Of a DNA stretch of 64,000 bases, positions 2 to 62,225 are shown piece by piece. Position 1 is the stretch's first letter, and each line of letters begins with the position of its first letter. Origin of the DNA: Knoellia sinensis KCTC 19936 (GTDB lineage Bacteria > Actinomycetota > Actinomycetes > Actinomycetales > Dermatophilaceae). The notes under the pieces were generated by a model. The model was given only the letters and a program-made list of their open reading frames with translations, was not told where the DNA came from and did no database searches. Where the stretch lies: positions 186,001-250,000 of the forward strand of contig NZ_AVPJ01000002.1 of the NCBI RefSeq assembly GCF_000768705.1, given 5' to 3'. The position numbers and the translations under genes are program-made.

Positions 2-313
2 TCCATGACCGACGAAGAACGAACCAACGGGTATGCCGTCTACGGCCGCTTCACGGAGCAGCTCGGCGAGCGTGGCCACATCGTCACCGGCGGCGCCGAA
101 CTGCACGGGAGGGCCACTGCGAAGTCGATCCCGGTCGGAGGAGGGCCGGTCACCGACGGCCCCTTCGCCGAGTCGGCCGAGCAGGTCGGCGGCTTCTTCC
201 AGGTCCAGACCGCCGACCTCGACGATCTGATGGACTGCTGCCAGCAGTTGGCCCAGATCGGCGAGGGCATCGAGGTGCGTCCCGTGGTCACTGATGCGGA
301 TCGTCAGTCATGA
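2..313 (+). CDS. YCII/DGPF-domain protein (5' end outside window)
   Basis: The reading frame is open to the left edge of the window, so the visible ATG at 5 is probably internal; intact family members have about 20 more N-terminal residues. The TDGPFAES signature typical of YCII-related DGPF proteins is present about halfway along. The stop overlaps the next start (ATGA at 310-313), so it is the first visible gene of a translationally coupled operon with two paralogues and an ECF42-type sigma factor. DGPF proteins have no firmly assigned biochemical function; the YCII fold is a small ferredoxin-like dimer. Partial at the window edge. Confidence 0.85.
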   Translation, partial: SMTDEERTNGYAVYGRFTEQLGERGHIVTGGAELHGRATAKSIPVGGGPVTDGPFAESAEQVGGFFQVQTADLDDLMDCCQQLAQIGEGIEVRPVVTDADRQS

Positions 314-726
314 AGGAGCGGTACGTGATTCTCCTGCCCGGGGACGAGTCTGCTTGGGAGAGTTCCACACAGGAGCACCGTGACGCGGTCTACGCCCGCC
401 ACGACGAGTTCGGCAAGCTCTTGCGCGAACGCGGTCACCAGGTCGTCGGTGGTGCCGAGCTGACCCACTCCCGCGAGGCCAAACTGGTGCGGGCCGACGC
501 AGCGGGCAAAGTGTTCATCTCCGATGGCCCGTTCGCCGAGTCCGCCGAGCAGTTGACCGGCTACTACGAGGTGGAGACCAACGATCTCGACGACCTTCTT
601 CAGGTGGTCGGCATCGTCGCTGGACCGGATCATGACCGCGCAGGGATGGGCGGTGTCGAGGTCCGTCGCGTCGTCTCGGATGAGGACCGCGCCGCCAGCG
701 GTCAGGACGCGGCTGGTGGGGCATGA
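310..726 (+). CDS. YCII/DGPF-domain protein
   Basis: 138 residues, full length for the family. Starts with a beta-strand (MKERYVILLPGDE) and contains SDGPFAESAEQ near residue 73, the DGPF signature. It overlaps its upstream neighbour by 4 bp and its downstream neighbour by 4 bp (ATG at 723), so the genes should be co-transcribed and translationally coupled. DGPF genes are known genomic partners of ECF42 sigma factors, and one follows at 1076. What the protein does (sensor, enzyme or effector) is not known from sequence. Confidence 0.88.
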   Translation: MKERYVILLPGDESAWESSTQEHRDAVYARHDEFGKLLRERGHQVVGGAELTHSREAKLVRADAAGKVFISDGPFAESAEQLTGYYEVETNDLDDLLQVVGIVAGPDHDRAGMGGVEVRRVVSDEDRAASGQDAAGGA

Positions 727-1079
727 AGCGATACCTCGTGCTGATCGCCTACGAGCCAGGCGACTGGGAGGCGGCCGGCCCCGAGGAACGCCAGATCTAC
801 ATCGACGGTCACCAGGCGTTCCACGACTTCGTGGATGAGCACGGTCGCCGCATCTCCGGCGCGGCACTGGCAGGCGCCGACACGGCAACGACGGTCAGGC
901 AGTCTGCAGTGACGGACGGGCCGTTCGCCGAGACCGCGGAGATGATCGGCGGCTACTACGACGTGGAACTCCCCGACCTTGACCACGCCATCACCGCAGC
1001 TCGGCTGCTGCCGCCCTCCTACGCAGTCGAGATCCGCTCGGTCATCGACCTCGACGCGGCCGGCGAACGGGTCGGATGA
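723..1079 (+). CDS. YCII/DGPF-domain protein
   Basis: 118 residues with MKRYLVLIAYEPGDWE at the N terminus and TDGPFAETAEM near residue 64. It is the third DGPF paralogue in the run and the closest to the usual length of about 115-120 residues. The ATG overlaps the previous stop, and its own stop overlaps the sigma factor start at 1076. Three tandem paralogues that have diverged suggest different partner or ligand specificities rather than a recent duplication; that is inference. Confidence 0.88.
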   Translation: MKRYLVLIAYEPGDWEAAGPEERQIYIDGHQAFHDFVDEHGRRISGAALAGADTATTVRQSAVTDGPFAETAEMIGGYYDVELPDLDHAITAARLLPPSYAVEIRSVIDLDAAGERVG

Positions 1080-2320
1080 CCGCACTCGAGCGCGTCGTGC
1101 GCGAGGAGTGGGGCCGACTCGTGGCCCTTCTCCTCGCGCAGTTCCGCCGGCTCGACCTCGTCGAGGACGCGCTCGCCGACGCGGTCGAGGCAGCGCAGGT
1201 CCACTGGCCCAGCGACGGAGAACCCGACAACGCGAGCGCTTGGCTCGTGACGACAGCGCGTCGCCGCATCCTCGACCGGCTGCGCGCCGAGGCCATGGCC
1301 GCACGCAAGGAACCGCTGCTCGCGACCGAGGCCGAGCGCCGACCGCAGGAGGGAGTCATGGCCGACACCGGCGATGTCGTCGACGACGATCTCCTCCGCC
1401 TTGTCCTCATGTGTGCGCACCCAGCGCTCCCACCCGAGGGCGCCAGTGCACTGTCGCTACGGCTTGTCATGGGCATCGCCACCCCCGACATCGCCCGGCT
1501 ATTCCTCGTGTCCGAGTCGACCATGGCGGCCCGGATCACGAGGGCCAAGAAGAAGATCGTCACCGCTGGCATCCCGTTCGCCATCCCCGGAACCGAAGCG
1601 ATCGGTGAGCGATTGGACGTCGTCGGGCACACGGCATACCTCGCGTTCACGGCCGGCTACGCGCCCGGAAGCGGACCCGATCTCCTCCGGGCCGAGCTCG
1701 CAGGGGAGGCCATCCGACTGGCCCGGGTCACGCACGCCCTCCGCCCGAGCGACACCCTCGCCCACCTCATCGCCCTCATGGTGCTGCAGCACTCCCGGCG
1801 AGATGCGCGGATCGGCGCCGACGGCGAACTCGTCCTGCTGCCGGAGCAGGATCGAGGTCGCTGGCACCACGACGAGATCGCCGACGCGCTCGCAGTTCTC
1901 GCCGGCGCAGGTCCGGCATCCTCACCGCTCTCGGAGAGCTATCGACTGCAGGCCCTCATCGCGGCCGAGCACGCCACCGCACCGTCGTCCCAGGAGACTC
2001 GCTGGGACCGAATCACCGATATGTATGCCGCGCTCGAAGTCATCTCTCCATCACCTGCCGTCCGGGTCGCGCGGGCGGTCTCGGTCGCCGAAGCGGAGGG
2101 CCCAGTGGCCGGTCTGGCGCTGTTGGAGAGCCTCGGCATGACAGGCCACCGACTGCCCGCGGTGCGAGGCGAGCTGCTGGCCCGCGCCGGCGACGCTCAG
2201 GCCGCGCGCGTGGCCCTGGACGAAGCCATCGCGCTGTGCGACAACGACGTCGAGCGTCGTCATCTGGAATCCCGTCGGGCAGGACTCGACGCACCGGGAG
2301 CGACTGCAGAGCGGACGTGA
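1076..2320 (+). CDS. ECF42-type RNA polymerase sigma factor
   Basis: 414 residues, far longer than a classical ECF sigma factor (about 190). Region 2 is at about residues 10-80 (VREEWGRLVALL, then VEDALADAVEAA) and region 4 at about 120-180 (ATPDIARLFLVSESTMAARITRAKKK, a helix-turn-helix). The remaining 230 residues are helical, Ala/Leu-rich and TPR-like, as in ECF42 factors, where a C-terminal extension replaces a cognate anti-sigma factor. No anti-sigma gene is present. Position immediately after three DGPF genes is the published hallmark of this group. Start ATG overlaps the upstream stop. Confidence 0.9.
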   Translation: MTALERVVREEWGRLVALLLAQFRRLDLVEDALADAVEAAQVHWPSDGEPDNASAWLVTTARRRILDRLRAEAMAARKEPLLATEAERRPQEGVMADTGDVVDDDLLRLVLMCAHPALPPEGASALSLRLVMGIATPDIARLFLVSESTMAARITRAKKKIVTAGIPFAIPGTEAIGERLDVVGHTAYLAFTAGYAPGSGPDLLRAELAGEAIRLARVTHALRPSDTLAHLIALMVLQHSRRDARIGADGELVLLPEQDRGRWHHDEIADALAVLAGAGPASSPLSESYRLQALIAAEHATAPSSQETRWDRITDMYAALEVISPSPAVRVARAVSVAEAEGPVAGLALLESLGMTGHRLPAVRGELLARAGDAQAARVALDEAIALCDNDVERRHLESRRAGLDAPGATAERT

Positions 2321-2426
2321 GGTCGGCCACTTTTCGGGAACAAAATTGAACAAAAGTCGACCACGTGGGCTGCAGCCTTCCCTAAGATCCGCCACGACGT
2401 TGCCGTCGGGACCCAAGGAGGAGCAG

Positions 2427-3467
2427 ATGCACAAGACCGTGCTGCGCTCGACCCGTGGAGCCGCCGTCACCGTGGCGGTGGCGGCCGAACGTGGCGTGCC
2501 GCCGGAGGTGTCACTGAGAGGCACCGGCATCACAGCCGAGATGCTCGAGTCTTCGGACGCGGAAGTCACCCGCGAACAGGACATCGCCCTCGTCACCAAC
2601 GTCATCAGGGAGCTTGGACCCACGGTCGGTCTCGGATCACAGGTGGGGATGGGCTACTCCGTCCGCACCTTCGGCGTGTGGGGCTATGCGCTCCTCACCA
2701 GCCCGAACCTCGGCAGCGCGCTGCGCACCGGCATGCGATTCCTCGACCTGAGCTTTGCCCTCAGCGTGCCTTCGTTGCGGGTCGTGGGTGACGAAGCGCG
2801 GCTTCACTACGACGTCTCACAACTCCCGGAGGAGATCCGCGGCTTCACCCTCGAACGCGACGGGATGGCGACGAGACGGATCGAACTCGACCTGCTCGGC
2901 TACCTCATCGAACTGCGACACATCGAGACGCAGGAACCGGGGACGCCAGAGGAGGAGGCGATGCTCAGCCAGTTCTTCCAGACACCGGTGACCATGAATG
3001 CTGCGGAGAGCTACGGCGCCTTCGACGCAGCTCTCCTCGAGTCGCCGCTCGCCCACGCGGATCCCGAGCGTGCGGAAGTCGCGCTGAGCCAGTGCCGCGC
3101 GGCTCTCGCCTTCAAACGTTCCCGAATCGGGTATGCCGGCGCGGTCCGTTCCGCCCTCATCTCCGGGCCGCAGCGGTGGAGTGACATCGGCGCGATCGCC
3201 GCAGGCATGCACATCTCCGAGCGGACCCTGCAGCGACGGCTCATCCAGGAGGGCACCTCCTTCCGCGACCTCGTCGCAGAGGTGCGCGAGTCGCTGGCGA
3301 TCGAACTGCTCGCTACCGGCATGCCCGTCGCCGAGGTGGCCGAACGTCTCGGCTACGTCGAGGTGTCGAGCTTCTCCCAGGCGTTCCACCGGTGGCGCGG
3401 AGTCGGGCCGAGCGCCTACCGGGCCAAACAGCCGTCAGACGTGTGGGAGGACAGGGCGCTCGTCTGA
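2427..3467 (+). CDS. AraC-family transcriptional regulator (OruR/arabinose-binding-like N-terminus)
   Basis: The chosen ATG at 2427 has AGGAGGAG 5 nt upstream; a longer frame exists from 2346 but lacks a ribosome binding site. 346 residues: an N-terminal ligand-binding region (about 20-210) of the type found in ornithine-utilisation and lipid-responsive AraC regulators, and a C-terminal double helix-turn-helix (about 245-340; HISERTLQRRL, then GYVEVSSFSQAFHRWRGVGPS). It lies 120 bp upstream of alkB in the same orientation. An 18-nt motif between it and alkB recurs before the esterase at 13104, so it may control both; that is inference. Confidence 0.88.
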   Translation: MHKTVLRSTRGAAVTVAVAAERGVPPEVSLRGTGITAEMLESSDAEVTREQDIALVTNVIRELGPTVGLGSQVGMGYSVRTFGVWGYALLTSPNLGSALRTGMRFLDLSFALSVPSLRVVGDEARLHYDVSQLPEEIRGFTLERDGMATRRIELDLLGYLIELRHIETQEPGTPEEEAMLSQFFQTPVTMNAAESYGAFDAALLESPLAHADPERAEVALSQCRAALAFKRSRIGYAGAVRSALISGPQRWSDIGAIAAGMHISERTLQRRLIQEGTSFRDLVAEVRESLAIELLATGMPVAEVAERLGYVEVSSFSQAFHRWRGVGPSAYRAKQPSDVWEDRALV

Positions 3468-3503
3468 GCCGACGCGGCCATCGACAACAACGGGTCACAA
3501 ACC

Positions 3504-3521: not shown

Positions 3522-3587
3522 CCACGGTCACTACCCGTGAGTAGCGTGCGGTCACGACGTAGTGCCCGACCCCCTCCTGGAGGAGCA

Positions 3588-4987: not shown

Positions 4988-5026
4988 CCACAACGCTTTC
5001 CACACTTCCACTCCCGAAGGACACCC

Positions 5027-5966: not shown

Positions 5967-5990
5967 CTCGCGGTCGTCCCCTGAACGTGG

Positions 5991-6051
5991 GCGGACGGCA
6001 TACACAGCCTCCCGGGCCGCCGGGGTCCGGGAGGTGGTGTATGCCGTCCGC
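5991..6051. terminator. long hairpin built from inverted GTATGCCGTCCGC copies
   Basis: A 15-bp perfect stem pairs GCGGACGGCATACAC (5991-6005) with GTGTATGCCGTCCGC (6037-6051). An inner 8-bp stem pairs CCTCCCGG (6008-6015) with CCGGGAGG (6027-6034), leaving an 11-nt loop. It lies 24 bp after the stop of the preceding membrane gene, so a terminator role is likely, although no T-run follows. Both outer arms contain the window's iterated octamer. Confidence 0.7.
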
Positions 6052-7184: not shown

Positions 7185-8549
<1,365 letters not shown>

Positions 8550-8579: not shown

Positions 8580-9389
8580 CTATCTGGTATGCCGTCCGCC
8601 CACGGTCGCTGCCGACCTCCCGGACCCCGCGAGGGCGGCCCCGAGCTGGAACCTCGTGTCGACGCCGTGCACCGCCATGAGAGAGGCGACGCGGCGCCGA
8701 ACGGTCCGAAGCCCCACGCCGAGGAAGCGGGCGATGGCCTCGTCCTTGAGGCCCAGGCCGAGGAGTTCGATGAGTCGGTCGTCGCCGGGCTGGCTCGCGG
8801 CGTACGGCACCGCGTGAGAGTGCTCCCACGCGAGGTCGAAGTAGGCCGCCAACGTGGAGATGAGGAGGGGGTCACGAATGAGGACGTAGCCCGACGTCAG
8901 GTCGCCCCAGCGCGCCAGGGCCACAGCGCCGACGTCGCCGAAGACGGCGTACTCCGATGCGACTAGGGGGAGGAGGCGCTGCTCCTCCCCGATGGACGCC
9001 CACGAGCGCAGCCACTGCATGCCCTGCGGGGTGTCGAGCGATGAGGCCGGGTAGATGGTCCGCTGGATGTTGCCGCTCGCGATCCAGTGCTGGTTGTCAC
9101 GCATCGTCGTTTCGTCGAGGGCGGGGCCGGCGTCGACGACCATGACGAAGTTGCGGAGGAGCCCGCTCGACTCGTGGATGAGGCGCTGGACCACGGTGGG
9201 GGCAAGGTCGTCGCTGATCGCCTCGACCCCGGGTGCGGTCGACGGCAGGTCCGACCCGATGAGCCGGTCCAGCAGGCCGCGGGCCTGGCTGAGATCGCGG
9301 AATCTCTCCTCGATGCGTGCGTCTTCGCGGTCGAAATACTCCTCGAGAAGCCGGGTCGGTGAGGTGACATCAGGGGAGGTCAGGTCCAT
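8580..9389 (-). CDS. LuxR-type transcriptional regulator
   Basis: The ATG at 9389 is preferred because AAAGGAGC lies just upstream; the frame extends further but with no signal. 269 residues. About 190 N-terminal residues form an uncharacterised sensor-like domain. The C-terminus (about 195-255) is a LuxR-type helix-turn-helix with KDEAIARFLGVGLRTVRRRV. A second regulator with a similar C-terminal arrangement lies at 20844-21836. The last residues (GGRHTR) are encoded by a copy of the GTATGCCGTCCGC repeat that supplies the end of the gene. An inverted repeat at 9416-9433 may be its autoregulatory operator. Confidence 0.8.
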   Translation of the reverse strand: MDLTSPDVTSPTRLLEEYFDREDARIEERFRDLSQARGLLDRLIGSDLPSTAPGVEAISDDLAPTVVQRLIHESSGLLRNFVMVVDAGPALDETTMRDNQHWIASGNIQRTIYPASSLDTPQGMQWLRSWASIGEEQRLLPLVASEYAVFGDVGAVALARWGDLTSGYVLIRDPLLISTLAAYFDLAWEHSHAVPYAASQPGDDRLIELLGLGLKDEAIARFLGVGLRTVRRRVASLMAVHGVDTRFQLGAALAGSGRSAATVGGRHTR

Positions 9390-9617: not shown

Positions 9618-10022
9618 TCACAGGCCCAGTTCGCGCGCTCCGGTCGCCGACGAATCCCGGAGGAAGTCGGCGCACCGACGCTCCTCGCCGGTCTCGCCGA
9701 TCGCGCCCGCGGCCCGGGACAGGGCGGCGAGGGCTCGGAGGAAACCACGGTTGGGCTCGTGCTCCCACGGCACCGGACCCTGACCGCGCCATCCGTTCTT
9801 GCGCAGGGTGTCGAGCGCCCGGTGGTAGCCGGTGCGGGCGTAGGCGTAGCCCTCGATGGTGCGGCCGTCCTCCAGCGCGTCCTCGGCGAGGGTTGCCCAC
9901 GCGATCGGAGAGGCCGGGTATGCCGTCGCGACCTGGTCCGCGGCCACGCCGGCTTCCAGCTTGCTCGCCGCCGGGTCGTCGGGGAGGCGGGTCTCGGGGA
10001 TGCCGAGAAGGTTGTCACTCAT
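9618..10022 (-). CDS. DUF3151 family protein
   Basis: 134 residues from ATG 10022 (GGAGCA box upstream), starting MSDNLLGIPETRLPDDPAAS. The core ASPIAWATLAEDALEDGRTIEGYAYARTGYHRALD and the RRNGWRGQGP-like segment (KNGWRGQGPVPW) match the actinobacterial DUF3151 family. These genes commonly sit immediately downstream of the class II aldolase gene, as here (17 bp gap). The function is unknown; it looks soluble and helical. Confidence 0.88.
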   Translation of the reverse strand: MSDNLLGIPETRLPDDPAASKLEAGVAADQVATAYPASPIAWATLAEDALEDGRTIEGYAYARTGYHRALDTLRKNGWRGQGPVPWEHEPNRGFLRALAALSRAAGAIGETGEERRCADFLRDSSATGARELGL

Positions 10023-13207: not shown

Positions 13208-13334
13208 GTATGCCGTCCGCCCGCGTCCGCGGGATCGGTCGCTCTGGCGACCACATCTCCGGACGCAAGCGCGCGGCATACCGGCGGCGTCCGCAACTGT
13301 GGTCGCTCCGGCGACCACATCCCCGGACGCAAGC
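13208..13334. repeat. composite repeat: inverted octamers plus 64-bp-period duplicated hairpin
   Basis: A GTATGCCGTCCGC copy at 13208 and an inverted CGGCATAC at 13274-13281 flank the hairpin GGTCGCTCTGGCGACC (13237-13252). A 34-nt block (13237-13270) recurs 64 bp later (13301-13334) with two substitutions; its hairpin is GTGGTCGCTCCGGCGACCAC (13299-13318). The region lies between the esterase promoter and the end of the signal peptidase gene. No coding potential. Confidence 0.75.
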
Positions 13335-22050: not shown

Positions 22051-22125
22051 CTCGGACCCTTGGCGTATGCCGTGTGCGGACGGCCGCTTCGGCTCACCGT
22101 CTGCAGCCTGCACTTGGAGCGCATC

Positions 22126-43769: not shown

Positions 43770-43776
43770 CGCCCGT

Positions 43777-46464: not shown

Positions 46465-47433
46465 CTAGGACCTGAGGCTGGCGACGGTCTGGGCGAGGCC
46501 CTCGGCGAGCGGGCGGCTGGTCCAGCCCAACTCGCGCTCGGCCTTCGCCCTCGTGCCCGTGTAGTTCGCGAACGCGGCCCGCAGCGACTCGGGGTGATAG
46601 GTGGCCGGCACCGGCAGGACCCTGGCGATCGGGGTCATGAGCCTCTCGCCCACCTTCAGCGCCCCGCCGGGGACCAGCATCGGCCCCTTCGTCCCCGCAG
46701 CGTCGGCGGCCTGCTGGAGGAGTTCGGCAAGGGTCGCCGGATCCCCGGCCAGCATGTAGGCCTCACCAGGGGTGCCACGCTCCATGGCCAGGACGTGTCC
46801 GCGCGCAATGTCCTCGACGTGGGCCCACATGAGGACGCCGCCGCCGCGGGGGAGCGGTGGGCGCTTGCCGGCCACGACCTGGGCGAACAACTCGCCGACC
46901 TGCGAGGTGTCGCCCGGGCCGTAGATCCCGCCCGGCATGACCGTGACGACGGGCAGGCCCCGGTCCGCGAACTCCTCGGCGATGTGGTGGGCCTCGGCCT
47001 TCGTCCGGTCATATTCGGTGAGGTGACTTCCCGTATGCCGGTGGCTCTCGTCCCGGATCACGCTGCCACTTCCGCTGTCGCTGTTGACCGCCAACGTGCT
47101 CGTGTAGACGACCTTGGGGGTGCCGCACCGCTGGGCTGCGCGCAGGACGTTGCGGGTGCCGTCCACGTTGACGTGCTGACCCGCGGAGGGGTCGCGCTCC
47201 CCGAGTTTGTACCAACCCGCGACGTGGAAGAGCCCGTCTGCGCCGTCGAGGAGGTGGTCGAGCGCGGTGACATCGTCGAGGTCGCCCGCGACGAGTTCGA
47301 CGCCGAGCGCGCTGAGTTCGGTAGCCCTGCTTGGGGTCCGAACGAGCGCCACCACCTCGTGCCCGTCGGCGATGAGTTGTCGGGCGAGCACGCCACCGAC
47401 GAATCCCGTGGCTCCGGTGAGTGCATAGCGCAT
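46465..47433 (-). CDS. NAD-dependent epimerase/dehydratase (extended SDR)
   Basis: 322 residues from ATG 47433. The Rossmann motif GATGFVGG at 7-14, acidic strand end VALVRTPSR for cofactor choice, catalytic YDRTK near residue 145 (YxxxK), and GGIYGPGD define an extended short-chain dehydrogenase. The family includes dihydroflavonol-reductase-like and hopanoid-associated sugar epimerases; the substrate is not assignable. Divergent from an SRPBCC gene at 47467 with a 33-bp gap. Confidence 0.88.
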   Translation of the reverse strand: MRYALTGATGFVGGVLARQLIADGHEVVALVRTPSRATELSALGVELVAGDLDDVTALDHLLDGADGLFHVAGWYKLGERDPSAGQHVNVDGTRNVLRAAQRCGTPKVVYTSTLAVNSDSGSGSVIRDESHRHTGSHLTEYDRTKAEAHHIAEEFADRGLPVVTVMPGGIYGPGDTSQVGELFAQVVAGKRPPLPRGGGVLMWAHVEDIARGHVLAMERGTPGEAYMLAGDPATLAELLQQAADAAGTKGPMLVPGGALKVGERLMTPIARVLPVPATYHPESLRAAFANYTGTRAKAERELGWTSRPLAEGLAQTVASLRS

Positions 47434-48100: not shown

Positions 48101-48874
48101 TCAGGTGAAGGAGAACAGGGCCACCGGATCACTCGTGGGCGCTTCGGATCCCGCAGCCGGCTCGAGGGTGATCCCGGCACCCGTGGCAGCAGCAGCGTCC
48201 CCGTCCAGCATGACGGTCACGGCCGCCCCGGAGGCGGGGATGAGCCCGGCACTCACCAAGCCTCGGCCCGGCAGGTCGAGCCACAACTGGTAGGCCTTCC
48301 CCGCAGGTGCGGCGGGCATGGCGTCGGCGACAAAGACCGCCTGGCCCCTCGCCGGGCTGCGGACGATCGCGATCTCGGAACCGTTCATGGGTTGCTCGAC
48401 CCGCTGCGCGTCCGGGGCCTGGAGCACCTGCTCGGTCGCGGTGAGCTGAGCAGGTCCGTCGTTCCACGGGGACCAGATGAGGGTTCCGACAGCGAGCACC
48501 GCGGCGGCAGCAGCGGCGGCGAGCCAGGGGCGCAACCGAGGGCGACGCCGGGTGGCGAGGTCGTCGGTGGTGCCAGCGGTGGCTCGGCTGCCGGTGGAGC
48601 CAGCGGTGGCGGCCGTGGGATCCGCGGGCTCGGTCACAGGGAGCGGCGGCAGTTGCCTGGTCTGCGCGATCGCTGACAGCACTGAGTTCCGCAGTGCGGG
48701 AGGAGGTGGCAGTTCAACGTCCGCGGCGAGAGCCGCGGCGGCGGCGCGGAGCTCGGTCACCTCGGCGCGACAGTCGGCGCACACCTCGAGATGTGCCTCG
48801 AACGAGCGGGACTCCTCGTCGGTCACGGCATTGACGGCATACGCGCCGGCCAGGGCGTGCGTGTCAGGGTTCAT
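48101..48874 (-). CDS. rskA: anti-sigma-K factor
   Basis: 257 residues. The N-terminal anti-sigma domain has HLEVCADCRAEV, the zinc-binding HxxxCxxC, at about 28-35. One transmembrane helix follows at about 118-135 (LRPWLAAAAAAAVLAVGTLIWS). The extracytoplasmic RskA domain contains GKAYQLWLDLPGRGLVSAGLIPASGAAVTVML. It overlaps the sigma factor by 4 bp. Holds SigK at the membrane until regulated proteolysis; sensing by redox or Cys state is reported for mycobacterial RskA. Confidence 0.93.
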   Translation of the reverse strand: MNPDTHALAGAYAVNAVTDEESRSFEAHLEVCADCRAEVTELRAAAAALAADVELPPPPALRNSVLSAIAQTRQLPPLPVTEPADPTAATAGSTGSRATAGTTDDLATRRRPRLRPWLAAAAAAAVLAVGTLIWSPWNDGPAQLTATEQVLQAPDAQRVEQPMNGSEIAIVRSPARGQAVFVADAMPAAPAGKAYQLWLDLPGRGLVSAGLIPASGAAVTVMLDGDAAAATGAGITLEPAAGSEAPTSDPVALFSFT

Positions 48875-50213: not shown

Positions 50214-50262
50214 GTTGTGCCCCAACCTTTTTCACCATCCCCGTATGCCGTCCGCCCACCAC

Positions 50263-50339: not shown

Positions 50340-51986
50340 TCAGCCGACGGTGACGGGGATGGTGTGCCAGCCGGTGGCACCCCGGGGGAACGGTGGGGTG
50401 CGGGCCTCGGTCTGGACCGCGCCCGTGAGGTCGGTCGCGCGCACCGTGAGCTCGTGACGTCCTTGACCTGCGTCCCACTCGAAATACCACTGCCGCCAGT
50501 AGTCGATGTTGGCGTCGGGACCCAGCGTGGCCTCTTGCCACGGATCGTTGTCCACCCGGATCTCAACCTTCTGTATGCCGCGTCCCTGAGCCCACGCGAC
50601 CCCACCGATGACGTTGCGTCCGGTCTTCAGGCGCGCCAGTCCGCGTGGGGTGTCGATCCGGGACTGAGTGAGGATCCGGCCGTCGATGGCCCAGTCGCGC
50701 TCGGTCCAGTACGCCTTCTGTGCGGCGTACGTGGTCGCCGTGAGGCGTTCGAGCCATTTCGTCGAGCCGACGAAGCCGTAGAGCCCCGGCGTCACCAGGC
50801 GCACCGGATAGCCATGGCGCCGAGGCAGAGCGCCTCCGTTCATCCCCACAGCGACCAGGGCGTCGCGGTCGTCGGTGAGGGCCTGGACGGGAGTCGAGAT
50901 CGTCATGCCGTCGACGGAGGTACTGAGGATCTGGTCGGCGCTCGCGCGAACCCCTGCGCGGGACAACAGTTCTCGCACGGGAACGCCGAGCCAGCGGGCG
51001 CCTCCGATGTAGCCGCCACCGACCTCGTTGCTCACGCAGCACATCGTGATGTCCTTCTCGATGAGGCCCATCGAGACGAGTTCGGTGAAGTCGATCGTGA
51101 ACGGGCTGTCGACGTCGCCGTCGATGGTCAGTCGCCAGTCCTTGACGTCGATGCGGGGGATCACGAGCGCAGTGTCGATCCGATAGAACTCCCCCGGCGG
51201 GGTACGCCACGGGGTGATGCCAGGGACGCGCCCTTCGAGTCCCGCGGGCAGAGCCGGCAACGGGTTCTCCACACCGGGCAGCGTGATCGAAGTGGGGTTG
51301 ACGGCGTCGGAGAGGAGGCGCTGGCCGATGCCGCCCACGGTCGCCGCCCCCACCGCGGTCGCGCCCGCTCCGAGGAGGAAGCCACGCCGCCCGGTCATGG
51401 TCGGCTCCCCGGTCGCCCGGGCGTTGTGATCCAGGGGGCTCTCTGCCGGCACACCTGTGGGCTGTGTCCCGTCCGGAGGAATTCGGTGAGTTCGGGACGG
51501 TTCGTCGGCGGTCGAGTCCCCGTGAGGCCGGACCTCGTCACGACGCATGAGGTTCAGGAGGAACCCGAGTACTCCGACGCCGACGAGGCCGGTCACGAGG
51601 CCGGGGACGACATCCAGCTGCCCAGCCGTGGGCCGCAATACGGCCGCCGCCGCGGCCAGCGCAGCGAGCCCGACGATCAGGAGGCGACCGGCCACTGGCC
51701 GCCGCCGGGACACCAGCCCCGCCACGGCCGCCAACGCAAGCGTGACCACTGCCACGCTGCCGATGAGGATCGGCTTGTCGGCCGTGCCCATCGTCCGCAC
51801 CGCCCATTCCTTGACGGGCGTCGGCGTCGCGTCGATGACCTGCGAACCCACGGCCAGCACCGGCGAGGCCTCGGGGGCCACCCACGCCGCCACGAAGTGA
51901 CCCGCGGCGGCACCGGCGGCCGCGGCGAGAAGGCCGCTCACGGCATACGGCCACCGTTTGTGGGAGAGCGGAACGGGAACGTCCAT
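50340..51986 (-). CDS. molybdopterin-dependent oxidoreductase, sulfite-oxidase-fold, with membrane N-terminus
   Basis: 548 residues from ATG 51986. About five hydrophobic segments occupy the first 160 residues, followed by a twin-arginine-like stretch (MTGRRGFLLGAGATAVGAATVGG) and the oxidoreductase domain. The molybdenum-ligand Cys lies in ITMCCVSNEVGGGYIGGARWLG. The C-terminal Ig-like dimer domain follows (VEIRVDNDPWQEATLG). SUOX/YedY-type fold; substrate not assignable. A SigK-like promoter at 51995-52021 places the ATG 8 nt after the -10 element. Confidence 0.88.
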   Translation of the reverse strand: MDVPVPLSHKRWPYAVSGLLAAAAGAAAGHFVAAWVAPEASPVLAVGSQVIDATPTPVKEWAVRTMGTADKPILIGSVAVVTLALAAVAGLVSRRRPVAGRLLIVGLAALAAAAAVLRPTAGQLDVVPGLVTGLVGVGVLGFLLNLMRRDEVRPHGDSTADEPSRTHRIPPDGTQPTGVPAESPLDHNARATGEPTMTGRRGFLLGAGATAVGAATVGGIGQRLLSDAVNPTSITLPGVENPLPALPAGLEGRVPGITPWRTPPGEFYRIDTALVIPRIDVKDWRLTIDGDVDSPFTIDFTELVSMGLIEKDITMCCVSNEVGGGYIGGARWLGVPVRELLSRAGVRASADQILSTSVDGMTISTPVQALTDDRDALVAVGMNGGALPRRHGYPVRLVTPGLYGFVGSTKWLERLTATTYAAQKAYWTERDWAIDGRILTQSRIDTPRGLARLKTGRNVIGGVAWAQGRGIQKVEIRVDNDPWQEATLGPDANIDYWRQWYFEWDAGQGRHELTVRATDLTGAVQTEARTPPFPRGATGWHTIPVTVG

Positions 51987-52072: not shown

Positions 52073-53647
52073 GTGGCACGCGGAGATGGACAGCTCACTC
52101 ATGACCTGATGCCGGGCGAGAAGGGGCCGCAGGACGCCTGCGGCGTCTTCGGTGTCTGGGCCCCCGGCGAGGACGTCGCCAAGCTGACCTACTACGGGCT
52201 CTATGCCCTGCAGCACCGCGGGCAGGAGTCCGCCGGCATCGCGGCGAGCAACGGCCGCCGCCTCCTCGTCTACAAGGACATGGGACTCGTCTCGCAGGTG
52301 TTCGACGAGCGCTCCCTCGGTTCGCTGACCGGTCACCTCGCGATCGGGCACTGCCGCTACTCGACGACCGGCGGGTCCACCTGGGAGAACGCCCAGCCGA
52401 CCCTCGGCGGCCACGACGGCGGCACACTCGCCCTCGCCCACAACGGCAACCTCATCAACTCGGCCGAACTGCGCGACCTCGTCTCCGAGGCCAACGGTGA
52501 GGGCCGCCACCGCGGCGAGATCGGGCGTGGCAACACGACCGACACCGCGCTCGTCACCGCACTTCTCACCGCAGACCCCGACCGCACGGTCGAGGCTGCC
52601 GCCATGGAGATCCTCCCGAAGCTGCGCGGCGCCTTCTGCTTCGTCTTCATGAACGAACACACCTTGTATGCCGCCCGCGACGCTCAGGGGATCCGTCCCC
52701 TCGTCCTGGGTCGCCTGGAGCGCGGCTGGGTCGTCGCCTCCGAGACTGCCGCGCTCGACATCGTCGGTGCCTCGTTCATCCGCGAGGTCGAGCCGGGTGA
52801 GCTCATCGCCATCGACGAGGACGGGCTCCGGTCCGAGCGTTTCGCCGAGGTCGACCGCAAGGGCTGCGTGTTCGAGTACGTCTACCTCGCCCGCCCCGAC
52901 ACGACGATCAACGGGCGCGTCGTCCACGAGGCCCGGGTCGAGATGGGACGTGCGCTGGCGCGCGAGCACCCGGTGGAGGCCGACCTCGTCATGCCGACGC
53001 CAGAGTCGGGCACGCCCGCGGCGATCGGCTACGCGCAGGAGTCCGGCATTCCCTATGGCCAAGGTCTGGTCAAGAACGCCTATGTCGGCCGCACCTTCAT
53101 CGCCCCGTCGCAGACGATCCGTCAACTCGGCATCCGGCTCAAGCTCAACCCGCTCAAGGAAGTCATCAAGGGCAAGCGCCTCGTCGTCGTCGACGACTCG
53201 ATCGTCCGCGGCAACACGCAGCGGGCGTTGGTGCGGATGCTCCGCGAAGCCGGTGCGGCCGAGGTGCACGTGCGGATCTCGTCGCCGCCGGTGCGCTGGC
53301 CCTGCTTCTATGGCATCGACTTCGCAACCCGCGCCGAACTCATTGCCACCGGGATCGGGGTCGAGGAGGTCTGCAACTCGATCGGGGCCGACTCGCTCGG
53401 CTACATCTCCGAGGACGGCATGATCGCGGCGACCGAGCAGGACCGTGAACGGCTCTGCACGGCGTGCTTCTCGGGTTCGTATCCCATCGAGTTGCCCTCG
53501 TCGGACCAGCTCGGCAAGGGTCTGCTCGAGCTGGAGTTCCCCGTCGATGGCGGCGTGACTGACGCCACGGAGACGGGCACGCTCGACGTCGATCGCGTCT
53601 CGGTCACCGCAGCGGGCGGGGCGGCCGAGGCCGTCCGTCGTCCCTGA
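52073..53647 (+). CDS. purF: amidophosphoribosyltransferase
   Basis: First committed step of purine synthesis: glutamine plus PRPP to phosphoribosylamine. Starting from GTG 52073 gives 524 residues with a short propeptide before the nucleophile Cys23 (DACGVFGVWAPG), the class II amidotransferase N-terminal cysteine. LQHRGQESAGIA, GHCRYSTTGGS and LAHNGNLIN are glutaminase motifs; the PRPP site is VVVDDSIVRGNT. C-terminal Cys residues (CNSIGADSLGYIS, LCTACFSGSYP) fit the Fe-S-containing type. A GACACT/CACTTT box precedes the start. Followed by purM after 24 bp. Confidence 0.97.
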   Translation: MARGDGQLTHDLMPGEKGPQDACGVFGVWAPGEDVAKLTYYGLYALQHRGQESAGIAASNGRRLLVYKDMGLVSQVFDERSLGSLTGHLAIGHCRYSTTGGSTWENAQPTLGGHDGGTLALAHNGNLINSAELRDLVSEANGEGRHRGEIGRGNTTDTALVTALLTADPDRTVEAAAMEILPKLRGAFCFVFMNEHTLYAARDAQGIRPLVLGRLERGWVVASETAALDIVGASFIREVEPGELIAIDEDGLRSERFAEVDRKGCVFEYVYLARPDTTINGRVVHEARVEMGRALAREHPVEADLVMPTPESGTPAAIGYAQESGIPYGQGLVKNAYVGRTFIAPSQTIRQLGIRLKLNPLKEVIKGKRLVVVDDSIVRGNTQRALVRMLREAGAAEVHVRISSPPVRWPCFYGIDFATRAELIATGIGVEEVCNSIGADSLGYISEDGMIAATEQDRERLCTACFSGSYPIELPSSDQLGKGLLELEFPVDGGVTDATETGTLDVDRVSVTAAGGAAEAVRRP

Positions 53648-53671: not shown

Positions 53672-54802
53672 GTGAGCGAGCAAGGCAGCCAAGGCGCACC
53701 CATCACCTATGCCGGAGCCGGCGTCGACGTCGAGGCCGGTGACAAGGCCGTCGAGTTGATGAAGGCCGACGTCCGGCGCGCGACCCGCCCTGAGGTCCTC
53801 GGCGGACTCGGCGGGTTCGCGGGCATGTTCGACGCCAGCGCGATCGCCCGCATGGATCGCCCGGTCCTGGCGACCTCGACGGACGGTGTGGGGACCAAGG
53901 TCGCCATCGCTCAAGCCCTCGACATCCACGACACCATCGGCTTCGACCTCGTCGGCATGGTCGTCGACGACATCATCGTGTGTGGCGCCGAGCCGCTCTT
54001 CATGACCGACTACATCGCGACCGGCAAGGTCGTTCCCGAGCGCATCGCCGCCATCGTCGGCGGCATCGCCCGCGCATGCGAGCAGGCCGGCGTGGCTCTT
54101 GTCGGTGGTGAGACCGCAGAGCACCCTGGGCTGCTCGAGCCGGACGAGTACGACGTCGCGGGTGCCGCGACGGGGGTCGTGGAGTATGCCGCGGTGTTGG
54201 GTCCGCAGCGCGTCCGCCCCGGTGACGTGGTCCTGGGTCTGGCGTCGTCGGGTCTGCACTCGAACGGCTACTCGCTCGTGCGCAAGGTGGTTGCGCACGC
54301 CGGGTGGGAGCTCGACCGCCACGTCGACGACTTCGGGCGCACGCTGGGTGAGGAGTTGCTCGAACCGACGCGCGTCTACTCCGCTGACCTCCTCTCACTG
54401 ATCCGGACCGATGGGCTCGACGTCCACGCGCTGTCCCACGTCACCGGTGGCGGACTCGCGGCCAACCTGGCCCGTGTGCTGCCCAGTGATGTCTTCGCGC
54501 GGGTGGACCGCTCGACGTGGACGCCGCCGGCGGTGTTCTCCACGGTCCAGTCCTTGGGCCGAGTGCCCCAGGCCGACATCGAGCGCACCCTCAACCAGGG
54601 TGTCGGGTTCGTCGCGATGCTGCCCGCCGACCAGGCCGACCTCGCCGTGCGCACCCTCGCCGAGCGCGGCATCGACGCGTGGCCGATGGGTGAGATCAGC
54701 GCCCTCGAGGATGCCCAGATCGAAGACGGCATCGAGGTCGTCCGAGGCGCCAAGGGCGTCGACGGCGGATCGGTGCAGGTCGTGGGCGACCACCCCGCCT
54801 GA
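53672..54802 (+). CDS. purM: phosphoribosylformylglycinamidine cyclo-ligase
   Basis: AIR synthetase, ATP-dependent ring closure of FGAM. 376 residues from GTG 53672. ITYAGAGVDVEAGDKAVELMK is the family start, followed by FDLVGMVVDDIIVCGAEPLFMTDYIA and VGGETAEHPG. Downstream VLGLASSGLHSNGYSLVRKV and THVTGGGLAANLARVLP are diagnostic. Clustered with purF as in other actinobacteria; DUF3073, which often follows purM in streptomycetes, lies 5.5 kb further on at 60298. Confidence 0.97.
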   Translation: MSEQGSQGAPITYAGAGVDVEAGDKAVELMKADVRRATRPEVLGGLGGFAGMFDASAIARMDRPVLATSTDGVGTKVAIAQALDIHDTIGFDLVGMVVDDIIVCGAEPLFMTDYIATGKVVPERIAAIVGGIARACEQAGVALVGGETAEHPGLLEPDEYDVAGAATGVVEYAAVLGPQRVRPGDVVLGLASSGLHSNGYSLVRKVVAHAGWELDRHVDDFGRTLGEELLEPTRVYSADLLSLIRTDGLDVHALSHVTGGGLAANLARVLPSDVFARVDRSTWTPPAVFSTVQSLGRVPQADIERTLNQGVGFVAMLPADQADLAVRTLAERGIDAWPMGEISALEDAQIEDGIEVVRGAKGVDGGSVQVVGDHPA

Positions 54803-55016
54803 GAGTCGATTCACCAGTTCGCTTGCGCGGCAACGGTGTCCGCGATGTCGAGCGCCTCAGAACTCGCACCCGCGCACTCAGCGACGCCACGGCATACACC
54901 ATTTTGCAGTCAGCCGCATGGCGAAATTCGGGCACCTCTGAACCACACGCGGGACCTCTACGCCGAGTAACTTCCGAAGTGTTCGGGCCGCCGGGCCCGG
55001 TGAAGCGAGAGGCGTC
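54803..55016. other. 214-bp intergenic region
   Basis: No gene supported. Contains one CGGCATAC octamer at 54890-54897 and AT-richer stretches (ACCATTTTGC, GCGAAATTCG) that may hold the promoter of the arfABC-like operon. AGCGAGAGGCG before ATG 55017 is a weak ribosome binding site. Confidence 0.4.
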
Positions 55017-56289: not shown

Positions 56290-58088
56290 GTGATGTCAAC
56301 TGGTGGCTGATGCTGCTGTCCTTCATTCTCGGCGCCCTCATCACGTGGTTCTGGATGGTTCGCCGCGCCACTCGCGAGGTGCCTCGCACCGTCGTGGACC
56401 GTGACCGGGACTTCTCGGTGTCCACGGGTGCCAAGGTGGCTGGCGGAGCCGGTCTCGCCGCTGCCGGTGCAGCCGGTGCGTCGGCTCTGCGTGATCGTGA
56501 TGTCGACCTCGACGTGGACCGTCCGGCCACGGAGGTCTACGACCGGACCGTGGACACCAAGTGGGACGCCCCGGACGTCGACGCGCCTGCCGCGGCCGCA
56601 CCTGTGGTCGACACGACCTGGGACGCCCCGGACGTGGACGTTCCGGACGTGGACGCACCGACGGTTCAGCGGTCGAGTCTCGACCTGCCGGACGTGGATG
56701 CTCCGGACGTGGATGCGCCCTCGGTGGACGCGTCCTTCGATCGGCCATCCTTCGAGCGCCCGGACCTCGATGCTCCTGAACTGGACGTGCCTGACGTCGA
56801 GGCGCCGACGGTCGCGCGGTCGAGTCTCGACCTGCCCGATGTCGATGTTCCCGATGTCGATGTCCCCGAGGTGGAGGTGCCTGACGTCAACGCTCCCAGC
56901 GTGGGCGGGGCCGTCGGTGGTGCGGCCGCGGCCGGTGCAGCAGGACTGGGTGCTGCCACGTGGGGTGCCCGCTCCGACGACGTCGACGACATCAGCGCCG
57001 AACCGTCCACGGAGCCGGTGCGGTTCGCCGACAGGTCGGAGCGCGACGCGGACACCGACGTCGACCTCTCGAGCGAGGCCGAGGTCATCGAGGCCGAGGC
57101 GGACCTCGAGACTCCGGCGGCGCCCACGGGTGAGGCGGACTGGTCGACGTCCACCGGTGCTGACGCCGACATCGACGAACTGCCGGTCGACGAGCCGGAA
57201 GTCATGGTCGAGGACGAGCCGGTCGTGGAGCCCGAAGCCATCGTCCGCGACGAGCCCTCAGAGTCGATTCCCCCTGTCGAGACGGACGTCGAATCGGCGG
57301 ATGCGGATCTCGTCCCCGACGCCCCCACCTCCAGTGGGGCCGCAGTCGGGGCTGCAGGAGCGGCTGGACTCGCCGGCGCGGGTGCGTTCGCCGCGGGACG
57401 CTTCGGCAAGGGCTCCGCGGACGCCGGTCCTGACGGCTCCGGCCCATCGGGCTGGACGATCAAGGGCAATGAGGACTCGATGCTCTTCCACACGCAGGAG
57501 AGCCCCTACTACGGCCGGACCAGGGCTGAGGTGTGGTTCGAGGATGAAGGGACCGCCCGCAAGGCCGGGTTCGTCCGCTGGGACGAGAAGGACCGTGCCG
57601 GCCGTGCTGGCGGCGCGGCGAAGCTCGTAGCCATCCCGGAGGGAAAGTTCGGCAAGGGTTCGGCTGACCCCTCCGAGGACGGCTCCGGACCCGAAGGCTG
57701 GACGATCAAGGGCAACGAGGACTCGAACCTCTTCCACACGCAGGAGAGCCCGTACTACGGCCGCACCAAGGCCGAGATCTGGTTCGACAGCGAGGAGTCC
57801 GCTCGTGGCGCAGGCTTCGTGCGCTGGGACGAGAGGGACCGTTCGGGTGCCGGGGCTCCCGCCACCCTCGTCAGCATCCCCGAGGGACGGTTCGGCAAGG
57901 GATCAGCAGATCCTGCCGAGGACGGTTCCGGACCGGACGGGTGGGCGATCAAGGGCAACGAGAACTCGATGCTCTTCCACACCGAGGACAGCCCGGCATA
58001 CAGGAAGACCAAGGCGGAGGTGTGGTTCCAGGACGAGGAGACGGCCCGCAAGGCCGGCTTCACGAAGTGGAACGAGCGCAGCCGCTGA
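56286..58088 (+). CDS. arfC: ArfC-like membrane protein with Asp-Val-Pro repeats and three sunset-like domains
   Basis: 600 residues. Transmembrane helix at about 7-25 (LMLLSFILGALITWFWMV), a low-complexity acidic region at about 70-220 dominated by PDVDVPDVDAP-type repeats, a Glu/Asp-rich region to about 345, and a Gly/Ala segment. Then come three 80-residue repeats starting at about 372, 454 and 535, each with FGKGSAD, GWTIKGNEDS, LFHT, YYGRT and AEVWF, and ending in RW or KW. IKGN...YYxRTxAEVWF resembles the sunset domain. Mycobacterial ArfC is much shorter (about 175 residues), so this copy is greatly expanded. Confidence 0.75.
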   Translation: MSDVNWWLMLLSFILGALITWFWMVRRATREVPRTVVDRDRDFSVSTGAKVAGGAGLAAAGAAGASALRDRDVDLDVDRPATEVYDRTVDTKWDAPDVDAPAAAAPVVDTTWDAPDVDVPDVDAPTVQRSSLDLPDVDAPDVDAPSVDASFDRPSFERPDLDAPELDVPDVEAPTVARSSLDLPDVDVPDVDVPEVEVPDVNAPSVGGAVGGAAAAGAAGLGAATWGARSDDVDDISAEPSTEPVRFADRSERDADTDVDLSSEAEVIEAEADLETPAAPTGEADWSTSTGADADIDELPVDEPEVMVEDEPVVEPEAIVRDEPSESIPPVETDVESADADLVPDAPTSSGAAVGAAGAAGLAGAGAFAAGRFGKGSADAGPDGSGPSGWTIKGNEDSMLFHTQESPYYGRTRAEVWFEDEGTARKAGFVRWDEKDRAGRAGGAAKLVAIPEGKFGKGSADPSEDGSGPEGWTIKGNEDSNLFHTQESPYYGRTKAEIWFDSEESARGAGFVRWDERDRSGAGAPATLVSIPEGRFGKGSADPAEDGSGPDGWAIKGNENSMLFHTEDSPAYRKTKAEVWFQDEETARKAGFTKWNERSR

Positions 58089-58090
58089 AA

Positions 58091-58178: not shown

Positions 58179-58733
58179 TCAGAGGACGGTGACCTGCGGG
58201 GCGAACATCTCCATGGCTCCGAGGGCCTGCTCGTGCTTGTCCGGGACGGACCCGGCACACGCCTGTGCGACGACCCGCACCGTCGCTCCCGCGTCACCGG
58301 CGGGGATCGCGGTCGCGATGACGCAGCAGTCGGTCGCCACGCCGGCGAGGGCGATGCGTGGTTGGTCGCCGACGACCGCACGGAGCCCAGGACCCCACTT
58401 CCCGAACGTCGGCTCGGTGACCACGTGGTCGGCGAGCGGGGCGATCTCGGGCACCACGGCATACAGGGGATCGGAGGCGGGGACGAGCGCGAACTGCCAG
58501 TCGTCGTAGTAGTCCGCCCACGAACCTCCCAGCCCCGGGTCGGCGACGAACCGGGTCACGACGACACGACCCTTGTATGCCGCCGCGAGACTCACGATGC
58601 GCGGCACCGTCTCTGCCCACATGGGTGAGCCCCACGCGCTCGCCTCCGGGTCGGCGAAGATCGCCTGGGGGTCGATGATCACGAGCCACTCGTCGTCGAG
58701 CGGCTCCACGGAGGCGACGTCCGCCCAGCTCAT
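58179..58733 (-). CDS. isochorismatase/nicotinamidase-family hydrolase
   Basis: 184 residues from ATG 58733. The triad is readable: Asp21 in LVIIDPQAIF, Lys in TFGKWGPGL, Cys in GVATDCCV. The start overlaps the stop of the NCS1 permease gene by 4 bp, so translation is coupled and the hydrolase probably acts on the imported compound (an amide, ureido or pyrimidine-derived substrate). The exact substrate is inference. VVTRFVADPGLGGSWADYYDDW is the segment that usually follows strand 2. Confidence 0.87.
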   Translation of the reverse strand: MSWADVASVEPLDDEWLVIIDPQAIFADPEASAWGSPMWAETVPRIVSLAAAYKGRVVVTRFVADPGLGGSWADYYDDWQFALVPASDPLYAVVPEIAPLADHVVTEPTFGKWGPGLRAVVGDQPRIALAGVATDCCVIATAIPAGDAGATVRVVAQACAGSVPDKHEQALGAMEMFAPQVTVL

Positions 58734-60235: not shown

Positions 60236-60297
60236 GTCAGATCACGGGCGGCATACGGTGCATGCCGCACGAGGAACGTGAGTGTGGCGATCAGGCG

Positions 60298-61250: not shown

Positions 61251-62166
61251 CCACTTCAACCGGCCCCAGGGCGGAGACGACCCACTGGCCGATCGGCTCC
61301 GCGCCTTCGGGTCCGAGACGGCCCACTCGGCCCAGTTGCCCCCCGTCGACGAGATCCACAGGGGCGGTGACCGTCGCCGGCGCAACCAGCGCATCGTCGT
61401 CGGTGCGGCCACTCTCGCCGTCGCGGCCGTCATCGGCGGCACCGTCGTCGCCAGCCAGATGGTGGGGCGTGGTGACGAGACGCTGCTGCCGGCGACCCAG
61501 ACGCCCACTCCGACCCAGTCCGCCACTCCTACCCAGACGGCCTCGGAACCGGTGCCCACACTCACCGTGACGTCGACGCCCACGCAGGAGGCCACCGCGA
61601 GCACCGCGGCGTCGGTGCCGACGGCCACCGTCACACAGGACTCCCCGACCTATCCGGGCACCAGAACCGACGTCGTCGCCGGAAGCTCGTCCTTCGTCCT
61701 CCCAGAGGGCTGGACGGCCACGGCTCGCGACTCCGACCTCGGTCACATCGACCGCCCCGACGCGAAGGTGCACAGCCTCTGCCTTCGCGACGGGACGCCC
61801 CGCCCGACCGACATCGCCTGCGACATCTCGATCGAGGTGGGTGAGACCCTGCTCGGAGCTGAGGGACAACGCGTGTGGGAGCCCGGCCAGGTCGACGGCT
61901 GGAGCGACAACAGTGGCGCGACGGTGTGCCCCGGCAAGGACGACGGCGAGGACTACATGGTGGGTGGGGTGAAGCCCACGAAGTCGTTCGCCGACGTCGG
62001 TGCGAAGACCGCGGAGAAGTACACCTACGCGATGCCCTGCCAGTCCGGACTGACGTTCACGGTGACGCAGCACTGGTTGCCGACGTCCCACATCAGGATC
62101 ACCGACTACCTCGCGAACGACCGGACCGAGGACATCCTCGGCTCCTTCCGATTCACCGGTTCCTGA
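61243..62166 (+). CDS. single-span membrane protein, likely sigma-factor partner
   Basis: 307 residues from ATG 61243 (GGAGGG upstream), starting inside the sigma gene. A cytoplasmic N-terminus (MSDHFNRPQGGDDPLADRLRAFGSETA, then PPVDEIHRGGDRRRRNQR), one transmembrane helix at about 49-72, a long Thr/Pro/Ser linker, and an extracytoplasmic domain with three or four Cys (SLCLRD, IACDIS, VCPGKDD, MPCQSG). No zinc anti-sigma motif. It resembles the gene after the ECF factor at 29958 in layout. Confidence 0.7.
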   Translation: MSDHFNRPQGGDDPLADRLRAFGSETAHSAQLPPVDEIHRGGDRRRRNQRIVVGAATLAVAAVIGGTVVASQMVGRGDETLLPATQTPTPTQSATPTQTASEPVPTLTVTSTPTQEATASTAASVPTATVTQDSPTYPGTRTDVVAGSSSFVLPEGWTATARDSDLGHIDRPDAKVHSLCLRDGTPRPTDIACDISIEVGETLLGAEGQRVWEPGQVDGWSDNSGATVCPGKDDGEDYMVGGVKPTKSFADVGAKTAEKYTYAMPCQSGLTFTVTQHWLPTSHIRITDYLANDRTEDILGSFRFTGS

Positions 62167-62181
62167 TCCGACTCAAGACGA

Positions 62182-62225
62182 CGTATGCCGTCCGCTCACC
62201 TCGCGAGGTGAGCGGACGGCATACG
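62182..62225. repeat. perfect 44-bp palindrome containing two inverted GTATGCCGTCCGC copies
   Basis: The left half 62182-62203 starts CGTATGCCGTCCGCTCACCT and the right half 62204-62225 is its exact reverse complement with no spacer. It lies between the convergent genes ending at 62166 and 62250, and probably acts as a bidirectional terminator when transcribed. Both outer ends carry the iterated octamer. Confidence 0.9.

Follow-up and report, generated by a model that had tools for sequence, protein, structure and literature searches.

Why does a single octamer, GTATGCCG, recur about once every 1-2 kb in the DNA of the actinobacterium Knoellia sinensis KCTC 19936? The question was raised by a 64-kb stretch of contig NZ_AVPJ01000002.1 (positions 186,001 to 250,000; hereafter the window), in which the original prediction had counted 26 plus-strand and 24 minus-strand copies and likened them to DNA uptake sequences. 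That count was exact (50 copies, 26 plus and 24 minus, the first at 31 and the last at 62217-62224). One hundred dinucleotide shuffles of the window contained 0.90 copies on average and 3 at most. The whole genome (3,987,063 bases, 61 contigs) harboured 2485 copies (1251 + 1234), compared to 68 copies (35 + 33) of the reversed word used as a control, making GTATGCCG 36-fold commoner. In 464 kb of the same genome (the window and 20 stretches of 20 kb) there were 318 copies, where an order-3 Markov model predicts 14.0 (23-fold). The abundance supposed from the window is clearly far above background genome-wide, and the near-background count named as a refutation of the original prediction did not occur. 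GTATGCCG had the highest z-score among the listed 8-mers of this set, the runner-up being an overlapping word. Most of its one-base neighbours were near expectation; GTAGGCCG (49 vs. 17.7) and CTATGCCG (20 vs. 6.6) were weakly enriched in an order-2 model. GTATGCCG differs from its own reverse complement and is not palindromic, and it shares with uptake sequences the trait of a short non-palindromic word that recurs every 1-2 kb or so, far over expectation. From comparisons at the sequence level we consider that GTATGCCG probably serves this actinobacterium as a genomic DNA uptake sequence, marking DNA as self in natural transformation.

Gene placement in the 464 kb relied on our own simple, unvalidated gene caller, which put 227 of the 318 copies in genes, 85 between genes and 6 at gene edges. 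Intergenic DNA made up 9.7% of the sequence and held 27% of the copies (1.89/kb between genes vs. 0.54/kb within, a 3.5-fold difference); the intergenic excess first remarked on in the window, at about a fifth of the copies, holds at this scale. Many of the close pairs of copies were inverted pairs between genes, confirming the proposed use in inverted repeats. Three of these pairs lie beyond gene ends in the window: an intergenic pair at 5996..6046 (copies at 5996, minus, and 6039, plus), 3' of a plus-strand gene ending at 5966; an intergenic pair at 13208..13281 (13208, plus, and 13274, minus), 3' of a minus-strand gene ending at 13347; and a perfect 42-bp inverted pair at 62183..62224 (62183, plus, and 62217, minus), between convergent genes ending at 62166 and 62250.

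Copies occurred in both orientations without strand bias, as had been claimed. In genes, 119 of the 227 coding copies were on the same strand as the gene and 108 on the opposite one. The strand test was made by contig, the replication origin not having been located, and gave 96/98 on contig 33 (which includes the window) and 52/59 on contig 1; eight pieces of a single-contig chromosome from the same genus (G007) gave 61/57, with 12/4 in one piece. Across 61 GTATGCCG-rich genomes the strand z had a standard deviation of 0.82 and a largest value of 2.3. Coding copies were mostly read as TAT-GCC (95) or GCA-TAC (85), so that 180 of the 227 encode Tyr-Ala or Ala-Tyr. TAT and GCA are minor codons here, as the original prediction remarked (23% of Tyr and 10% of Ala codons, respectively). 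Where the context G-Tyr-Ala-G completes the octamer, Tyr-Ala was written TAT-GCC 95 times and TAC-GCC 23 times, compared to 51 and 108 elsewhere (Fisher p 6e-16); Ala-Tyr in the CG-Ala-Tyr context was GCA-TAC 85 times and GCC-TAC 42 times, compared to 3 and 145 elsewhere (Fisher p 1e-34). In contexts that complete the octamer, GTATGCCG prevails over the usual codon preference.

The octamer was also conserved at orthologous positions, a check proposed with the original prediction. In alignments with five species of the same genus (36-39 kb aligned each, 81-82% identity), GTATGCCG was intact in 144 of 189 cases (76%), while 466 scored 8-mers of equal GC were intact in 38% on average. It ranked fifth in this list, itself included, and the four words above it have 25-29 cases each. 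Identity was 0.86-0.99 across the core and 0.59-0.84 at flank positions of the same codon phase (0.59-0.68 upstream). Intergenic copies alone were intact in 11 of 19 cases.

Two regions of contig 1 were nearly devoid of the octamer. They were found by looking for the largest gaps, the second from the whole-genome position list, and their Poisson probabilities (1e-5 and 6e-6) are those before allowing for this gap search. The first (35.6-56.2 kb) holds one copy in 20.5 kb, where about 14 are expected, and encodes a WecG/TagA glycosyltransferase, a UDP-GlcNAc 2-epimerase, a UDP-glucose dehydrogenase and an asparagine synthase; most of its genes have 61-66% GC, compared to 69% for the window. The second (218.2-239.9 kb) holds one copy in 21.7 kb (about 14-15 are expected in each of the two regions) and encodes an O-antigen ligase, three glycosyltransferases and an asparagine synthase. 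Gene content and GC suggest that these surface-polysaccharide regions may have been acquired recently, and only these two regions suggest that acquired DNA is depleted of GTATGCCG. The phage TJE1, whose host dialect is not established, carried two copies in 49 kb, the same as the reversed control. About 7 kb of the second depleted region (approximately 980-7795 of locus L252, contig 1, ~233.0-239.8 kb) had neither a called gene nor an Rfam match, possibly because the simple gene caller missed genes there.

The 51 intergenic single copies revealed an extended flank after the core, T(74%)-C/G-C(66%)-G(70%)-C(58%)-Y-C(70%)-R-C(68%)-C(54%)-T(54%), and A was over-represented about 7-11 bases upstream of the core in this genome. 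The T at +9 also marked the two main classes of coding copies (44% and 62%), and the C at +15 in 65% of one class and 37% of the other. An extended motif common to the relatives was rejected, as other genera with GTATGCCG share only positions 9 and 13, and these weakly; the flank is this genome's own. The extended form GTATGCCGTC, seen in intergenic copies such as those of 5996-6046, includes ATGCCGTC, which we take to be also the opening of the Neisseria AT-DUS (DUS, DNA uptake sequence), probably by coincidence.

Related genera had been named as a further comparison, and they revealed one-base dialects of the word. All 9 genomes of the genus hold approximately 1,970-3,280 copies of GTATGCCG. 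In a sample of 119 genomes from 53 genera of the family, GTATGCCG reached at least 200 copies per Mb in 61 genomes and 60-200 in 8, with fewer in the other 50. Samples of 40 kb from 10 GTATGCCG-poor genomes gave GGATGCCG as the leading word in G033 and GTACGCCG in G030 and G047 (an overlapping word sharing the lead in G047), and no clear candidate in at least 5 of the 10. Genome-wide, GGATGCCG was present 3949 times in G033, 3816 and 3838 times in genus g17, and 2099-4480 times in four g44 genomes; GTACGCCG was present 2111-4185 times in g40, 785-2618 in g48, 2216 in G030, 1359 in G031, 1463 in G075 and 2529 in G112. The three dialects, GTATGCCG, GGATGCCG and GTACGCCG, are one-base versions with the common core G-x-A-x-GCCG. 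In several genera of the family none of the three was clearly present. A FastTree phylogeny of 60 genomes, built on four Tad-region proteins, put GGATGCCG at two distinct positions and GTACGCCG at several; the dialect labels of 56 genomes require at least 11 changes, two weak cases being counted as labels of their own. The Tad region of G112 is a divergent copy on a long branch.

Genus g44 (G051, G085, G108 and G122) harboured two dialects together, G051 and G085 holding also 1217 and 1189 copies of GTATGCCG; these genomes were perhaps caught during a dialect change. Another word, CGAAGGGG, was over-represented in the no-dialect genera g37 (G044, G080, G105; 62 vs. 10.5 in 100 kb) and g38 (G045, G081, G106, G121; 39 vs. 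7.7 in 73 kb). In the samples of G075 (L059, L060, L084) the leading word was GTACGGCG (41 vs. 9.4 in 60 kb), perhaps a further dialect beside the 1463 copies of GTACGCCG in that genome.

Alignment of the Tad regions fetched from these genomes (up to 20 kb each) suggested that the dialects in part occupy the same positions. The GTATGCCG sites of G011, G118 and G025 read GTACGCCG in 39 of 116 cases and GTATGCCG in one case in eight GTACGCCG-rich genomes, compared to GTACGCCG in 8 of 68 and GTATGCCG in 4 of 68 in four no-dialect genomes (39/116 vs. 8/68, Fisher p 0.0009, which is indicative only since the cases share ancestry). Among the three genomes themselves, GTATGCCG was retained in 14 of 39 cases. 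GTACGCCG sites followed into no-dialect genomes read GTACGCCG in 28 of 208 cases. The GGATGCCG sites of G033 and G024 read GTATGCCG in 9 of 39 cases in four GTATGCCG relatives, and GGATGCCG in 2; from these relatives to G033 and G024, 66 cases gave GGATGCCG 9 times, GTATGCCG 6, GTACGCCG 11 and CTACGCCG 12 times. The four relatives kept GTATGCCG among themselves in 78 of 101 cases. The pattern was not seen in the G075 group (1/8 and 1/4).

Outside the family, GTATGCCG was not clearly enriched in any of the 228 other-family genomes of an order sample or in a phylum sample of 296 genomes. By contrast, GTACGCCG was the top 8-mer of four named Nocardioides loci (52 vs. 8.1 expected in 69 kb), and in a class sample of 393 genomes it reached 3588 copies in 4.2 Mb (G679, family f23; control 134), with 452 in G950 of the same genus and high counts in some other families as well. 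Sequence follow-up gave GTACGCCG as the top 8-mer in f23 and f101 and not in f89 or f22; f92 was represented by a 2.1-kb contig only, and f20 was background. The Nocardioides loci and f23 overturn, for GTACGCCG, a confinement of the whole phenomenon to one family. Since GTACGCCG has a codon background of its own (Tyr-Ala as TAC-GCC), comparison with the reversed word exaggerates its enrichment, and part of its signal in other families (such as f20 and f22) looks like codon or compositional background. In the pooled Nocardioides loci (L091, L112, L113, L114), CAGCGACT was also enriched (21 vs. 2.8).

Of the late competence genes whose search had been proposed, comEA, comEC and pilin genes are present in this genome. 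It encodes ComEA (SLBB and HHH_3 domains), ComEC and a Tad locus with a T2SSE ATPase, an AAA protein, RcpC, TadE and two Flp pilins. In Micrococcus luteus, transformation requires comEC and nearly all tad genes (PMC4322843). The window itself encodes a protein with a TfoX_N domain (34811..35143, minus strand); the domain match named in the original prediction was confirmed (E 2e-18). This gene carries no weight for uptake, as there is no evidence of its membership in such a system.

We propose that a sequence-specific receptor, situated on a competence pilus of the Tad/Flp type or next to it, would prefer DNA bearing the octamer, and that this DNA would pass to ComEA and then to ComEC, where one strand would enter and be integrated by homologous recombination. 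Tags would spread and persist by molecular drive because tagged alleles would be taken up more often. They would accumulate in both orientations where coding tolerates them (as Tyr-Ala or Ala-Tyr) and most densely between genes, with inverted pairs near gene ends. If the specificity of the receptor shifted by one base, the new word would accumulate while the old one decayed, giving rise to dialects such as GTATGCCG, GGATGCCG and GTACGCCG. The preference in uptake, the receptor and the competence of this organism are predicted components. Biased uptake with molecular drive is one mechanism for the whole pattern in this genome, while each rival leaves several features unexplained. The original suggestion of an uptake sequence agrees with most of the genome-level signatures of such a sequence and is supported in part, its functional side (tagged DNA preferred, a receptor, a competent host) being a prediction.

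Several results weigh against uptake. All 37 family genomes tested had ComEC, whether or not they carried a dialect, and 118 of 119 had an ATPase of the broad T2SSE family, so that some other factor must discriminate. No receptor was found in a search of the Tad region. An xRC motif in the TadE-like pilin (labelled by its place behind the TadA-type ATPase, not by family search) was surveyed in 56 of the 60 genomes, leaving out G031, G079, G067 and G101, which had no usable match. The best correlate of dialect, it was present in all 31 dialect genomes, but also in 15 of the 25 that lacked a strong dialect (a group that includes the weak G009 and G026). A phylogenetic pair test of motif and dialect was not significant (median p 0.125), and the motif was dropped as a receptor mark, being widespread in Actinomycetota; it can at most indicate that the locus is intact. 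The literature searched held no report of transformation in this group. The ortholog cases share ancestry and are not independent. The ratio of GTATGCCG to the reversed word ranged from 2.5 to 50 in the 61 rich genomes, and some of these are only 2.5-fold above the control. The extended flank of this genome was absent from the sampled GGATGCCG and GTACGCCG genomes. The GTACGCCG-rich genomes (samples of 60-160 kb) had no intergenic excess: 160 kb of four family genomes held 0.64 copies/kb between genes vs. 0.75/kb within, and four no-dialect genomes held 0 between genes and 0.17/kb within. When the cross-dialect alignments were run in reverse, sites of GTACGCCG-rich genomes read GTATGCCG in 40 of 123 cases and GTACGCCG in 5; chance GTACGCCG words of no-dialect genomes, taken as a control, matched GTATGCCG about as often (8/21, with GTACGCCG in 5/21), so that this direction is uninformative and only that starting from GTATGCCG sites was used.

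The lack of an intergenic excess of GTACGCCG would suit a repeat of the HIP1 type. HIP1 (highly iterated palindrome, GCGATCGC) is a cyanobacterial, palindromic and extremely over-represented octamer tied to methylation, and a similar repeat, kept by DNA methylation, mismatch repair or another drive without a link to uptake, would cover high copy number, conservation and patchy distribution with no need for a receptor. GTATGCCG, however, is not palindromic, and its inverted pairs, 3.5-fold intergenic excess, two depleted regions and dialects are what transfer-biased spread predicts; we regard the HIP1-like explanation as unlikely. The intergenic excess and the inverted pairs near gene ends, together with the wide spread of the word, could also be expected of a binding site for a nucleoid, segregation or transcription-termination protein, selected site by site. 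Such a site is hard to reconcile with the absence of strand bias, with the near-equal use of both gene strands (119 coding copies on the same strand and 108 on the opposite one) and with two stretches of about 20 kb nearly empty of the octamer, and selection at each of thousands of sites makes repeated one-base dialect changes improbable. There is little probability in this explanation.

Chi words, the recombination signals of the RecBCD or AddAB nuclease, are likewise abundant, short and variable between lineages, and a recombination hotspot was among the alternatives raised at the outset. Known Chi words are strongly strand-biased, unlike GTATGCCG, and RecC (PF04257) had no match in this genome or in the 4 others of the genus that were listed, while many no-dialect genomes have RecC. 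With 0 matches to PF04257, a Chi-RecBCD hotspot is ruled out in this genome, an exclusion that covers RecBCD only; a Chi-type signal as a whole is very improbable. Across the family RecC was scattered, with a match in 47 of 119 genomes and none in 72; the matches were in genomes with and without dialects. The reading of 180 of the 227 coding copies as Tyr-Ala or Ala-Tyr, and the part of the GTACGCCG signal in f20 and f22 that resembles such a background, might point to a codon-pair or compositional artefact. A word 36-fold commoner than its reversed form, 23-fold above the Markov expectation, densest outside genes and overriding codon preference leaves this account next to no probability, and for GTATGCCG in this genome the counts, placement and codon override exclude it.

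If experiments confirm that GTATGCCG directs uptake, there would be an uptake-tag system outside the two Gram-negative families where such systems are known, and this actinobacterial counterpart would have arisen independently and would probably use a different pilus. Experiments could then address whether a type IVa pilus is necessary for uptake specificity, by what route a genome switches dialect (three one-base versions exist in sister lineages, two of them together in g44), and what share transformation has had in shaping these actinobacteria. It could also offer a simple route to transformable laboratory actinobacteria.

The remaining copies in the window are exact single matches. On the plus strand they are at 31..38, 2023..2030, 3131..3138, 8587..8594, 9918..9925, 19962..19969, 22065..22072, 23998..24005, 25780..25787, 27397..27404, 30095..30102, 36068..36075, 37984..37991, 41155..41162, 43775..43782, 44605..44612, 44959..44966, 47033..47040, 50243..50250, 50573..50580, 52666..52673, 54184..54191 and 58575..58582; on the minus strand they are at 1632..1639, 7892..7899, 15927..15934, 20456..20463, 23206..23213, 25297..25304, 27490..27497, 28492..28499, 32713..32720, 36409..36416, 37792..37799, 39553..39560, 41226..41233, 41346..41353, 44117..44124, 48835..48842, 51941..51948, 54890..54897, 57994..58001, 58457..58464 and 60249..60256. 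Two other repeats were observed in the same genome. An element resembling repetitive extragenic palindromes, GACTTTGTGCCC with an inverted copy about 50-60 bp apart, formed 12 pairs in the 464 kb (in the window at ~11200-11275 and ~58090-58170; also in L033, L034, L043, L045, L046 and L050). TCCAATTGGGTGAG formed short arrays (6 copies in L039, ~541-735; 4 copies in L048, ~1673-1802) and was also present in loci L033, L035, L036 and L037, as inverted pairs (L033, L036) and singly.

Among known repeats, HIP1 is likewise an extremely over-represented octamer; GTATGCCG differs from it in being non-palindromic and in having dialects and hairpin pairs, and we know of neither such dialects nor such hairpin pairs in HIP1. 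The uptake signal sequence (USS) of Pasteurellaceae has a high copy number and flanking bases beyond its core, in an AT-rich flank. GTATGCCG resembles it in copy number, in a flank beyond the core and in the presence of more than one type per family, but its word and phylum are others and its flank is GC-rich (T-S-C-G-C-Y-C-R-C-C-T). The two USS types are AAGTGCGGT and ACAAGCGGT, and the inner cores are GCGG in USS and CTG in DUS (PMC12616744). The DUS of Neisseriaceae is a short sequence repeated thousands of times and known in eight dialects (Frye 2013, PMC3630211), whose distribution has been used for finding integrative elements (PMC7371117). GTATGCCG is similar in being a short word in thousands of copies with family dialects; it differs in its core (G-x-A-x-GCCG here, CTG in DUS) and in its machinery, an actinobacterial host with a Tad locus compared to a type IVa pilus with ComP. 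It does not share the word of the neisserial DUS or the Pasteurellaceae USS, as descent from either would imply. The Tad/Flp transformation of M. luteus is closer in phylum and in its ComEA, ComEC and tad genes, and requires two tad clusters; a term search of that paper did not return 'uptake sequence' (PMC4322843). Searches of the open-licence PMC literature, a corpus outside which lie most subscription journals and all preprints, revealed no uptake sequence of Actinomycetota among the papers listed, and a 2025 paper gives Neisseriaceae and Pasteurellaceae as the only families known with uptake specificity (PMC12616744). As proposed here, the octamer works like DUS and USS, but by its word it is neither. 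Evenly balanced, in our view, is the wider possibility of an independent and old uptake code of Actinomycetota, with GTACGCCG in Nocardioides and some families and with one family in which one-base shifts would have led more than once to GTATGCCG and GGATGCCG, and some genera of which lack the code. Uptake specificity would then have arisen a third time, here in monoderm bacteria, with a putative receptor reading the word through a Tad pilus.

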